The notes beneath the pieces are model-generated. The model did no database searches. It was not told where the DNA came from and saw only the letters and a list, made by a program, of their open reading frames with translations. DNA of 64,000 nt from an uncultured Rhizobiaceae group bacterium (GTDB lineage: Bacteria > Pseudomonadota > Alphaproteobacteria > Rhizobiales > Rhizobiaceae), in NCBI GenBank assembly GCA_937930845.1, contig CALHBJ010000001.1, forward strand, positions 186,001 through 250,000. Direction: 5' to 3'. This document shows positions 24,423-28,640 of the stretch, piece after piece; within the stretch, counting starts at the first letter, position 1; every line of letters starts with the position of its first letter. Position numbers and translations under genes: made by a program.

Positions 24423-25376
24423 TTAAGAAGATGATTCAAGTCCGAGCGCTTCCAGCGCTCTCATCACATCATCTGGTGTACCCACCGCAATGCCGGTCAA
24501 ATCACGTTCAATGCGGCGCGCAAGGCCGGTGAGCACCTTGCCAGAGCCGATCTCCAAGATGGTGCCGACGCCGTTTTGGGCCATGTAGAGCACCGATTCT
24601 TCCCAGCGCACACGTCCTGTCACCTGCTCGACCAGGCGCTTGGCGATGTCATCGGGGTGTGAAATGGGATCGGCCAGCACATTGCATACCAATGGTACGA
24701 TTGTGGGTTTGATATCCACTTCGGCAAGAGCTTGCGCCATGCGTTCAGCCGCCGGTTGCATCAGTGCCGAATGGAAGGGTGCGGAAACGGGCAAGGGCAA
24801 TGCCCGCTTGGCACCGGCTTCGGTTGCAGCCGCCATGGCCCGCTCCACCGCTTCCTTGTGGCCGGAAATGACCAACTGGCCGCCGCCATTGTCATTGGCA
24901 ATCTGACAGGCATTGCTGTCCTGGGTGGCGCTTGTGCAAATTTCTTCAAGTGCGGTCTGTTCCAGGCCGATAATGGCCGCCATGGCACCCACGCCCACGG
25001 GCACAGCAGCCTGCATGGCCTCACCGCGAATGCGCAACAGGCGCGCGGTATCAGATACGGACAACGCACGGGCAGCAGCCAATGCAGAATATTCGCCAAG
25101 GCTGTGGCCCGCCACATAGCCTGCATGGGTTACTGCAAAACCACGTGTTTCCATGGCTCGCAATGCCGCCAAACTGACCGCCATTAGTGCCGGTTGGGCG
25201 TTTGATGTGAGCGTCAGCTCATCCTCAGGCCCCTCCCACATGATCTTTGACAGATCCTGGCCCAGCGCATCATTGACTTCTTCAAATACGGCCCGGCTCT
25301 CGGCAAACTGGTCGGCCAACGCCTTGCCCATGCCAACAGCCTGTGACCCCTGCCCGGGAAATGTGAGTGCAATCAT
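24423..25376 (-). CDS. fabD: Malonyl-CoA:ACP transacylase
   Basis: A 317-residue acyltransferase that loads malonyl groups on ACP. The family start LTFPGQGSQAVGMGKAL, the nucleophilic Ser in VAGHSLGEYSALAA, the Arg in LRIRGEAMQ, and the His in PVSAPFHSALMQ are all visible. It is the first gene of the fabD-fabG-acpP-fabF series. Divergent from the ubiquitin-like/glycosyltransferase gene across a 221-bp gap in which I see no other gene. Confidence 0.97.
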   Translation of the reverse strand: MIALTFPGQGSQAVGMGKALADQFAESRAVFEEVNDALGQDLSKIMWEGPEDELTLTSNAQPALMAVSLAALRAMETRGFAVTHAGYVAGHSLGEYSALAAARALSVSDTARLLRIRGEAMQAAVPVGVGAMAAIIGLEQTALEEICTSATQDSNACQIANDNGGGQLVISGHKEAVERAMAAATEAGAKRALPLPVSAPFHSALMQPAAERMAQALAEVDIKPTIVPLVCNVLADPISHPDDIAKRLVEQVTGRVRWEESVLYMAQNGVGTILEIGSGKVLTGLARRIERDLTGIAVGTPDDVMRALEALGLESSS

Positions 25377-25597
25377 CTTGAAAACCCTGAATTAGAGACG
25401 TGGGGGCTTGGTTGCGAGAAAATGCGGCGGGGGTCAAGGGTTGGGCAGCTAAAGTGCCTCAACTCCTGTTAGGCCTTACTTGTCTTCACAGACCAAGTTG
25501 CGCATACAAATTCAATTGTCACCGCACACAGTGCCAATTGTTTATCGCCAATGCTGGCGCATGATCGGGCCAAGCCGCGCACAAATTGGGTTATTTG

Positions 25598-26785
25598 ATG
25601 AATATCACACTCCCCAGTGAAGAAATTATTGCCATCCCTGAGGACATAGGGACACTAGAACAGATCAAGGAACATGTGGAAGCGGTTTGCGGAATTACCA
25701 AGTTACATCAGCGGTTGTTTGCCGGTGATGTGGAAGTCGTTGACCAGCTCCTCTTTGACACTTTGCCACATGACCAGCCATTACAACTCGTGATCGCCAT
25801 TGGCGATCGCTATTGCATCAGCCGCGCCAACCATGATCACGGCCTGCCCTGTGCCAATGATTTTGTCCCAATTCAGTCGACATTGGCGCACCGCGACATC
25901 GCAGCGCTAACTGCCCCACCGGCCATTGAGGTGGCATTGATGGGCCAGACGGATACCGGCAGAGACCTTGCCGAACCATATCTTTCAGCGTTTCAGGCAG
26001 ATCGGAAGTCGCGTTTGACCCGACTGGCTCAAATTCGTGCGCAACTTGATGACGGGCCTGTCGTTTTGTCCATGTTCAATTGGGGCTATCGGCACATGTT
26101 TGAAAACTGGGTGGTCTCGTGCGAGCGCCGTAATATCAACAGCCGAAGCTGTACGTTAATCTTCCCAACCGATGCACAGGCAGACGTACTGGCGCGCAGA
26201 ATGGGGTTCCAGACCTATTTTGACGGCCACTCCTATGGTGAAATCCCCGTTGAAGCCAACCAGCAATTTGGTGACGAGGACTTTCGCCGGATCATATTTG
26301 CAAAGATCGCCATGGTTCAGGACATGCTGGAAATTGACGGGGACTACATCCGACAGGACATGGATATGGTTTGGTATCGTGACCCACGGGATGATTTGCA
26401 GAAAACCGCCGACCGCGAAAGCCTCGACATGATGTTCATGTATGATGGCCCCGGCGTGATAAACCAGCCGCTGAACTATAATTCCGGTTTCATATATCTG
26501 AAAAACAATGCGTTCACCCGCTATGCGTGGGATCAGGTCTTCACCAATTACGGGCAAATTCTGGTTGAAGGTAAGGAGCAACGCCTGATTAATACGATCG
26601 TCAGCTACCTGCGTGAGAAAGGGTTGCGCACGGCTCAGTTAGCCGAAATGGAATATACCAATGGCCATCTGCTGGTGAATGGGGGAACCGTCCCTAAAAG
26701 CAGCATTCTTGCCCACATGAGCTGGACTGCCAATATTGAAGTCAAAATCCAGAGTATGAAGCGACTGGGCGTTTGGTATTTGTGA
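25598..26785 (+). CDS. Ubiquitin-like domain fused to GT77-like glycosyltransferase
   Basis: A 395-residue cytoplasmic protein without signal peptide. Residues 1-68 look like a ubiquitin beta-grasp: MNITLPSEE, then TLEQIKEHVEAVCGI (helix), LHQRLFAG and PLQLVIA line up with ubiquitin's TIENVKAKIQ, QQRLIFAG and TLHLVLR. There is no terminal Gly-Gly and the chain continues, so it is not a conjugated modifier. Residues 150-395 resemble the Nucleotid_trans/GT77 domain: a DxD metal site in RQDMDMVWYRDP (D254, D256), LNYNSGFIYLKN near 292-303, and a closing HMSW ... RLGVWYL. It should transfer a sugar from a nucleotide donor; donor and acceptor are unknown. The ATG at 25598 is chosen because it starts the first beta strand; an in-frame TTG lies four codons upstream. 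It is not in an operon. Confidence 0.72.
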   Translation: MNITLPSEEIIAIPEDIGTLEQIKEHVEAVCGITKLHQRLFAGDVEVVDQLLFDTLPHDQPLQLVIAIGDRYCISRANHDHGLPCANDFVPIQSTLAHRDIAALTAPPAIEVALMGQTDTGRDLAEPYLSAFQADRKSRLTRLAQIRAQLDDGPVVLSMFNWGYRHMFENWVVSCERRNINSRSCTLIFPTDAQADVLARRMGFQTYFDGHSYGEIPVEANQQFGDEDFRRIIFAKIAMVQDMLEIDGDYIRQDMDMVWYRDPRDDLQKTADRESLDMMFMYDGPGVINQPLNYNSGFIYLKNNAFTRYAWDQVFTNYGQILVEGKEQRLINTIVSYLREKGLRTAQLAEMEYTNGHLLVNGGTVPKSSILAHMSWTANIEVKIQSMKRLGVWYL

Positions 26786-26795
26786 ACTGCGGTGC

Positions 26796-26948
26796 CCTTA
26801 GAGTGCTTCAAGCTTAGCTTGAATCACTCTAGATTTAAATTTGTGCTCACGCTGTCAGGCTTCGCCTTTCACTGCGCAGGCGCGGCGCAATACACCGGGT
26901 CGGCATATGCCTCCCAGAGTTTCCACTTGAGTGAAAAACGCTCTAAGG
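26796..26948. repeat. 153-bp intergenic repeat with terminal inverted repeats
   Basis: The ends are CCTTAGAGTG (26796-26805) and CGCTCTAAGG (26939-26948), inverted with one mismatch. The right end, read on the minus strand, is GAGCGTTTTTCACTCAAG followed by TGGAAACTC, close to the GAGCGTTTT...AGTGGAATC type of dispersed rhizobial palindromic repeat. No second copy was seen in this window. It fills the gap between the glycosyltransferase and the TPP enzyme gene. Confidence 0.5.
26800..26830 (+). terminator. Hairpin terminator after the glycosyltransferase gene
   Basis: AGAGTG-C-TTCAAGC, loop TTA, GCTTGAA-T-CACTCT forms a 13-bp stem with one mismatch. It starts 14 bases after the stop codon and is followed by the AT-rich AGATTTAAATTT. 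It is part of the 153-bp repeat and is symmetric enough to work in both directions. Confidence 0.5.
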
Positions 26949-26963
26949 CTGTCCAGCGTACCG

Positions 26964-28640
26964 TTATTGAGCAGCAGCGCGCAATCCGCTGATGGTCGCC
27001 CTTGGCGAAATGCCTTCAGGATCGATCATCAGTTCCAGTAATGCGCCTCTTGGGGCCTGCGTAGCCCTTTTGAAAGCCGCCTGAAAGTCTTCGGTGCGTT
27101 CAACCCGTTCGCTGTAGAAGCCAAATGCGCTCGCCAGCGCAACAAAATCCGGGTTGACCAAGTCAGTGGCGCTGACCCTGCCTGGGTATTCGCGTTCCTG
27201 GTGCATTCTGATTGTTCCGTAAGTGCCGTTGTTGAGCAATAATATGACGGGCGCTGCGCCATATTGCATGGCGGTTGCGAGTTCCATGCCGTTCATCTGG
27301 AAATCGCCATCTCCGGCGAAACACAGGACAAAACGAGACGGATCAACAAGTTTGGCGGTGACCGCTGCCGGCACCCCTGCCCCCATGGAGCCGGCCTGGG
27401 GACCAATCAGCCGCGCCACCTGGCCTGCTTCATTTGGGCCATAGTAGAGATACCGCCCCGGCCAAATGGCAAAGTTGCCTGCCCCATTGGTGACAATCGT
27501 ATCGGCGGGGATGGTTTCGCGCAGATGGGCCATGATCACACCCATATCAACGGTGCCCGGTTGTTCTGCTGGAATGAGCGCTTTTTCCCATGCCGTGCGC
27601 GCCACAATGGTGCGCGCGCCCCAGGGAGAATTCTGGACCGGTGGCTGGGCGGCGAGCGCCGACAGGGCAGCATTGGGACAGGACATGACTGCCAGGTCGG
27701 CCTGAAACACCTTGTTCAACTCGGCTTCCGAGATGTGGATATGGATCAGTTGTTTGTCAAAATGGGCCGGGTCAAACAGGCGATAGCCGTCTGTCAGCGT
27801 TTCCCCAAAGCGCACATTGATGGCGATGATCAAGTCGCTTTCACTGAGAAAAGTGCGGATTTCCGGTGCCAGGCCAAACCCGGCGTCGCCGATGTAATTG
27901 GGACTGCGATTGTCGATCAGATCCTGACTGCGGAAGGTGACAATGACCGGCAAATCATTATCTGCCACAAATTTTTGCAGCGCTGCACGCCCGGCATCAT
28001 TCCAGGCAGCACCACCCACGACGACAACGGGCCGCTGGGCAGCCGCCAGGCGTGACATGATGGCCTGGGCCTGGGACTCGACAATTAGCGGCCGCACCGG
28101 CTGCACCTTGCCGCGGGGCACCGCCTGGGTTTCCTGCACCAGCATGTCTTCCGGCAGCGCCACCACTACCGGGCCGGGCCGGCCCGAAATTGCCATGGAG
28201 AAGGCGCGTGAAATGAGTTCAGGCACACGGTCGGCATCATCAATTTCCACGACCCATTTGGCCATTGTGCCAAACACGGCCTTGTAGTCGAGTTCCTGAA
28301 ACGCCTCCCGCCCCCGCATGGATGTTTCAATCTGACCAACAAACACCACCATGGGCGTTGAGTCCTGCATTGCGGTGTGGATGCCGATGGAGGCATTGGT
28401 GGCCCCTGGCCCACGGGTGACAAACAGGATGCCGGGATTGCCTGTCAGCTTGCCATAGGCTTCCGCCATGAACGCGCCGCCACCTTCATTGCGGCAATTG
28501 ATGAATCTGAAGGAATTGGACACGTCATACAGGGCGTCCAATACGGCAAGATAGCTTTCGCCCGGTACGCCAAAACCCATGTCCACATCCTGGGCAAGCA
28601 GGCATTCAACGAGCAGTTGGGCACCGGTTCGTTTGGTCAT
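26964..28640 (-). CDS. Thiamine pyrophosphate-dependent enzyme, acetolactate synthase-like
   Basis: A 558-residue protein with the three-domain layout of the acetolactate synthase family. The catalytic Glu is in FGVPGESYLAVLDAL near residue 28, the central FAD/ADP-type domain has VVVGGAAWNDAGR, and the TPP/Mg motif begins FAGDGDFQMNGMELATA and ends LLLNNGTYGTIRMHQ. Without a regulatory ilvH gene beside it, and with only moderate similarity to IlvB, its true 2-oxo acid substrate cannot be named; glyoxylate carboligase, sulfoacetaldehyde acetyltransferase and oxalyl-CoA decarboxylase relatives share this fold. It lies downstream of the Liv binding-protein gene on the same strand, beyond a strong terminator, so it may be only partly co-expressed. 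Confidence 0.85.
   Translation of the reverse strand: MTKRTGAQLLVECLLAQDVDMGFGVPGESYLAVLDALYDVSNSFRFINCRNEGGGAFMAEAYGKLTGNPGILFVTRGPGATNASIGIHTAMQDSTPMVVFVGQIETSMRGREAFQELDYKAVFGTMAKWVVEIDDADRVPELISRAFSMAISGRPGPVVVALPEDMLVQETQAVPRGKVQPVRPLIVESQAQAIMSRLAAAQRPVVVVGGAAWNDAGRAALQKFVADNDLPVIVTFRSQDLIDNRSPNYIGDAGFGLAPEIRTFLSESDLIIAINVRFGETLTDGYRLFDPAHFDKQLIHIHISEAELNKVFQADLAVMSCPNAALSALAAQPPVQNSPWGARTIVARTAWEKALIPAEQPGTVDMGVIMAHLRETIPADTIVTNGAGNFAIWPGRYLYYGPNEAGQVARLIGPQAGSMGAGVPAAVTAKLVDPSRFVLCFAGDGDFQMNGMELATAMQYGAAPVILLLNNGTYGTIRMHQEREYPGRVSATDLVNPDFVALASAFGFYSERVERTEDFQAAFKRATQAPRGALLELMIDPEGISPRATISGLRAAAQ

Follow-up and report, generated by a model that had tools for sequence, protein, structure and literature searches.

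The gene considered here encodes a protein of 395 amino acids, P0001, and occupies positions 25598-26785 on the forward strand of the window, that is, the whole 64,000-nucleotide stretch of a Rhizobiaceae contig that was analysed. The open reading frame and its coordinates were confirmed, as was an earlier note's description of the gene as solitary and divergent from fabD; a TTG codon at 25586, four codons upstream, could serve as an alternative start. The conserved flanks, as identified by comparison across the genus, are fabD (Acyl_transf_1; 24423..25376, reverse strand) on the left and a thiamine-pyrophosphate (TPP) enzyme gene (26964..28640, reverse strand) on the right. P0001 itself can be divided into a putative ubiquitin-like (beta-grasp) domain (residues 1-69; 25598..25804), delineated by sequence alignment and profile scores, a linker or possible helical region (residues 70-152; 25805..26053) that has no family match and some helices predicted at low confidence, and a PF03407 (GT77-type) catalytic core (residues 153-395; 26054..26782), delineated by Pfam and a profile of relatives. 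Alignment to these relatives also locates a DxD motif, D254-M-D256 (26357..26365), and these four features of P0001 are on the forward strand.

Codon preference favors the P0001 frame over both other forward frames in residues 1-75, in residues 76-152 and in the core, each part taken separately. The codon fit of the whole gene is 0.052 versus 0.108-0.232 for 13 other, hand-picked ORFs of the window, and its GC content is 0.512 versus 0.543-0.592 for the same 13 hand-picked ORFs. Immediately 3' of the stop codon, there is a 31-base palindrome (26800..26830) with three mismatches between the strands, which would form a strong RNA hairpin and is present in one copy within the window; this element is possibly a terminator, and a scan for consensus terminators called none at this location. 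The peak 19-residue mean hydropathy of P0001 is 0.88, no long hydrophobic stretch is present, and the protein is probably cytosolic.

The two flanking genes are widely conserved in the genus, with a fabD match in 12 of 15 genomes (E<=1e-80) and a TPP enzyme match in 14 (E<=1e-100), and ten genomes other than that encoding P0001 carry both on one contig. In eight of these ten (G001, G002, G003, G004, G005, G006, G009 and G012), fabD and the TPP enzyme gene are directly adjacent, with 59-103 bases between the match ends. The distance is 841 bases in G013 and 1556 bases in G011, with one TPR protein gene in each and, in G011, an additional VIT1-family protein, and it reaches 1590 bases in the P0001-encoding genome, where the gap (25377-26963) contains the P0001 gene. 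Because both spacing and content differ across these ten genomes and the one under study, the slot between fabD and the TPP enzyme gene is variable between species. P0001 is present in its own genome and was not found in the other 14 genomes of the genus that were searched, so that recent insertion of the gene is the simplest reading, with loss elsewhere as the alternative.

The sole Pfam domain detected in P0001 is PF03407 (Nucleotid_trans; residues 187-352, E 2.5e-10), with a score of 41.2 bits versus the curated Pfam cut-off of 22, which makes the protein a member of this family; an NCBIfam search yielded zero matches. PF03407 is a GT77-type family that includes the plant RGXT enzymes, and the original annotation of P0001 as a GT77-like glycosyltransferase is backed at the level of PF03407 membership. 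The relatives of the core that we identified come from two family genomes (L002 and L003), one order genome (L107) and cyanophage S-SKS1, whose protein of 223 amino acids matches PF03407, together with 32 IMG/VR loci retrieved with the S-SKS1 protein. A profile of seven relatives aligned by hhalign with residues 153-395 of P0001, that is, up to its last residue (Prob 97.6, E 3.8e-12). The pairwise identity of P0001 to the cores aligned with it is 15-26%. Residues N161, D192, D254, D256, G297-F298, Q328 and N332 of P0001 are common to the aligned relatives, and N355, H373, W376 and K383 to most of them, in agreement with both the DxD metal site and the C-terminal motif that had been picked out in the earlier note. 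Thus, P0001 shares with the PF03407 family a core of full length with the DxD, GF, NGH and C-terminal H..W..K...G.W patterns, and differs from it in the extra 152-residue N-terminal region and in E327, where all seven relatives have the Asp of a DQ pair. A further deviation is T354, at a position where Pro precedes NG in most of the seven relatives. Given the DxD motif, the core is probably that of a metal-dependent glycosyltransferase, which would use a nucleotide sugar and a metal ion.

The extra N-terminal region of P0001 is lacking in the S-SKS1 protein, L002, L003 and L107; the frames of L003 and L107 include some 40-75 residues ahead of the core that are unmatched by P0001. Because the seven-relative profile aligns with residues 153-395 only, residues 1-152 are an addition outside the common glycosyltransferase fold. 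The earlier note had allowed that residues 1-70 could simply belong to that fold, which is contradicted by the start of the relatives' cores at residue 153. With some of the relatives only about 220 amino acids long and the profile restricted to residues 153-395, we consider it extremely improbable that residues 1-152 are an ordinary component of the fold.

The likeness of this additional region to ubiquitin was assessed by pairwise alignment, profiles and structure prediction. RUB1 was first picked up as a comparison from a PDB sequence search with full-length P0001, in which it was the second of four rows (E 0.68). In the same search with residues 1-75, RUB1 was row 25 of 105 at E<=10 (E 0.074); the 24 rows above it were nearly all ankyrin-repeat designs, along with one protein with repeats matching the leucine-rich-repeat style, and 23 of the 24 had no stretch that passes by itself, the exception being one DARPin (E 0.032). 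Residues 4-68 of P0001 align with residues 6-72 of RUB1 (score 65, which none of 3000 shuffles attained) and with residues 7-73 of ubiquitin (score 45, with 3 of 3000 shuffles scoring as high), in both cases with two one-residue gaps. Among the 11 ubiquitin-like domains compared, NEDD8 and Dsk2 scored 55 and 44, respectively, and the seven others apart from RUB1 and ubiquitin scored 19-36. Taken over all 11 domains, the best score of 65 was matched by none of 3000 shuffles and by none of 3602 control fragments, which overlap one another and were taken from other ORFs of the window and from fetched loci, many of them antisense; when RUB1 and NEDD8 were left out, the best score was 45, equalled by 8 of the 3602 fragments. 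P0001 resembles ubiquitin and RUB1/NEDD8 in the order and spacing of elements, starting at the end of strand 1 and running through strand 5, in the helix and in the QRL-FAG pattern, and an equivalent of the helix lysine K27 of ubiquitin is retained as K24. It differs from them in that the Gly-Gly end is absent, Ile44 of the hydrophobic patch is deleted (in the alignment to ubiquitin), the region is fixed within a longer protein and there is no Pfam match.

Most of strand 1 remains unaligned, and by eye, residues 1-5 (MNITL) could provide this strand only if the hairpin were about three residues shorter. The short first hairpin ahead of the helix at residue 19 appears ThiS-like by eye, raising the alternative that the domain belongs to another bacterial branch of the beta-grasp fold (ThiS/MoaD/TGS-like) and contributes to folding or dimerisation of the enzyme. 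However, Pfam gave no match of this kind at E<=10, although its filters drop most weak matches, and the helix and QRL region fit RUB1, so we regard this assignment as improbable.

Profile comparisons gave weaker results than the pairwise alignments. A hidden Markov model of the 11 ubiquitin-like domains scored P0001 at 8.8 bits, with 3 of 20,000 shuffles as good, and ranked the P0001 ORF second among 524 frames of the window, after a 74-amino-acid frame. With hhalign, seven of these domains aligned with residues 5-45 (P 0.0037; 0.019 for the full protein), a result matched by one of 373 control N-termini and one of 400 shuffles. No Pfam family matched residues 1-75 at E<=10, where the HMMER filters drop most weak matches, and the ubiquitin model PF00240 run over the source genome at E<=10 had a single match, elsewhere and none at P0001; neither search places the N-terminus of P0001 in a curated family of the ubiquitin-like superfamily. 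Single-sequence AlphaFold models were of very low confidence for both the full-length protein (pLDDT 34.6) and residues 1-75 (pLDDT 44.9). In the full-length low-confidence model, residues 2-5, 9-12 and 62-68 are strands and residues 20-31 form a helix, as in ubiquitin, with nothing at 32-61, and in the low-confidence model of residues 1-75, the first strand is absent and a helix (35-41) lies close to the place of ubiquitin strand 3; a Foldseek search with the latter model returned unrelated chains, with E values from 3.5 upward, and no ubiquitin.

Taken as a whole, the claim that residues 1-70 follow the ubiquitin pattern is partly confirmed. The pairwise score exceeds chance over most of a ubiquitin-like domain (0/3000 shuffles, 0/3602 fragments), and the profile results are weaker (3/20,000, 1/400, 1/373 and no Pfam match, with strand 1 mostly unaligned), which leaves the likeness above chance and short of proof. 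The main competing explanation is that residues 1-152 constitute a lineage-specific accessory region devoid of a beta-grasp, in which a helix and a QRL-FAG pattern coincide by chance. The absence of a Pfam match for residues 1-75, profile scores near the edge (3/20,000 and 1/400 shuffles as good), an alignment that leaves out most of strand 1, and a low-confidence fold that lacks strand 1 and has a helix near the position expected for strand 3 are all compatible with such a coincidence, whereas a RUB1 alignment spanning 65 residues with two one-residue gaps, a score that none of the 3602 fragments and none of the 3000 shuffles attained, and the series of scores from RUB1 through NEDD8 and ubiquitin to Dsk2 (65, 55, 45 and 44) argue against it; we hold coincidence to be a serious contender that nevertheless falls below an even chance. 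That the first 70 or so residues of P0001 form a beta-grasp appears slightly favored.

Searches for homologues of P0001 had mostly close relatives in reach. No second protein with the P0001 architecture was found among 61 relatives, 385 class genomes, 15 genus genomes and 397 order genomes, which are overlapping sets that each contain the genome under study, nor in genome contigs and viral contigs, where near-exact short stretches are required and the searches are therefore limited to close relatives. Neither plasmids nor phages, searched at E<=10, nor an alignment of the core against viral contigs yielded a full-length relative, and residues 1-75 matched nothing else in the source genome at E<=10. 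The comparison of homologues with and without the N-terminal domain, which the earlier note had called for, gave relatives lacking the region (S-SKS1, L002, L003 and L107) and, in the searches run, none carrying it.

PF03407 matched in 59 of 297 family genomes at E<=0.001, over the cut-off in 46, and 30 of these loci were fetched. When P0001 was compared with frames of at least 100 amino acids in L001-L031, L002 and L003 were the only matches besides its own gene (L004), and weak ones; the remaining loci were read by the longest central frame, several of which are antisense. With the threshold at E<=1e-6, matches came from 3 of 299 genomes of the phylum and 7 of 385 of the class, the P0001-encoding genome being included in each count. 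Among six class loci, one frame each was read for three (L101, L104 and L105): L101 and L105 encode glycosyltransferases whose core is N-terminal, and the frame read in L104 is not that of a glycosyltransferase. In the alphaproteobacterial proteins of L101 and L105, an extra region, TPR-like by eye, is located C-terminal to the core. L032 and L033 are weak P0001 rows from the class-genome search. Of the weak rows in the order genomes, L107 is a true core relative, and L108-L110 do not have the appearance of glycosyltransferases. The L003 core retrieved nothing from plasmids and two records from phages, both of the same cyanophage; the S-SKS1 protein had no match in plasmids, and L107 had none in viral contigs.

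A different role for the N-terminal domain would be that of a protein modifier, released from the enzyme or conjugated to targets. The Gly-Gly end is indeed missing from the P0001 translation, as the earlier note had stated, and the frame continues into the enzyme. The absence of a JAB-type gene likewise holds, since Prok-JAB has no match in the P0001-encoding genome at E<=0.001, a threshold at which 11 of the 15 genus genomes match, with three of the 15 over the cut-off. Given the absence of both Gly-Gly and a Prok-JAB match in this genome, conjugation of the N-terminal domain is unlikely, and we give hardly any credence to a released or conjugated modifier.

The enzyme core, its motif, the extra region and the variable site are well supported. 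In the explanation that we prefer, and that as a whole we put just short of an even chance, a single gene for a PF03407/GT77-type enzyme would have been inserted recently between fabD and the TPP enzyme gene; its core would transfer sugar from a nucleotide sugar with the help of a metal ion, and the probable ubiquitin-type beta-grasp at its N-terminus would serve as a permanent, non-cleaved binding module. Ubiquitin-like domains built into enzymes are common in eukaryotes. We know of no bacterial glycosyltransferase with such a domain, and searches of an open-licence library listed none. A more specific version, in which a eukaryote-like ubiquitin/RUB1-type domain and a GT77-type enzyme were acquired as one gene and the domain, without being conjugated, serves as a docking module that picks out a protein or complex to be glycosylated in the cytosol, we consider doubtful. 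If true, it would mean that a ubiquitin fold can steer glycosylation without conjugation machinery, from a single gene; the P0001 architecture is so far a single instance.

The docking role is inferred, with a precedent in AgtA of Dictyostelium, a cytosolic GT77 enzyme with a C-terminal WD40 domain that acts on Skp1 (PMC8724618). Like AgtA, P0001 combines a GT77-type core with an additional domain and is likely cytosolic, and unlike AgtA, in which the WD40 domain is C-terminal, it has its ubiquitin-like candidate at the N-terminus. By comparison with the WD40 domain of AgtA, the N-terminal module of P0001 may bring the enzyme to its acceptor or to a partner protein.

Two further observations concern the genomes surveyed. 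The PF03407 gene of cyanophage S-SKS1 (L035, 1483-2151), which has relatives in L036-L067, adjoins genes for GDP-mannose dehydratase and GDP-fucose synthase. Within the genus, the genome G014 is about 0.9 Mb in size at a stated completeness of 98%, versus 2.4-4.8 Mb for the other members.
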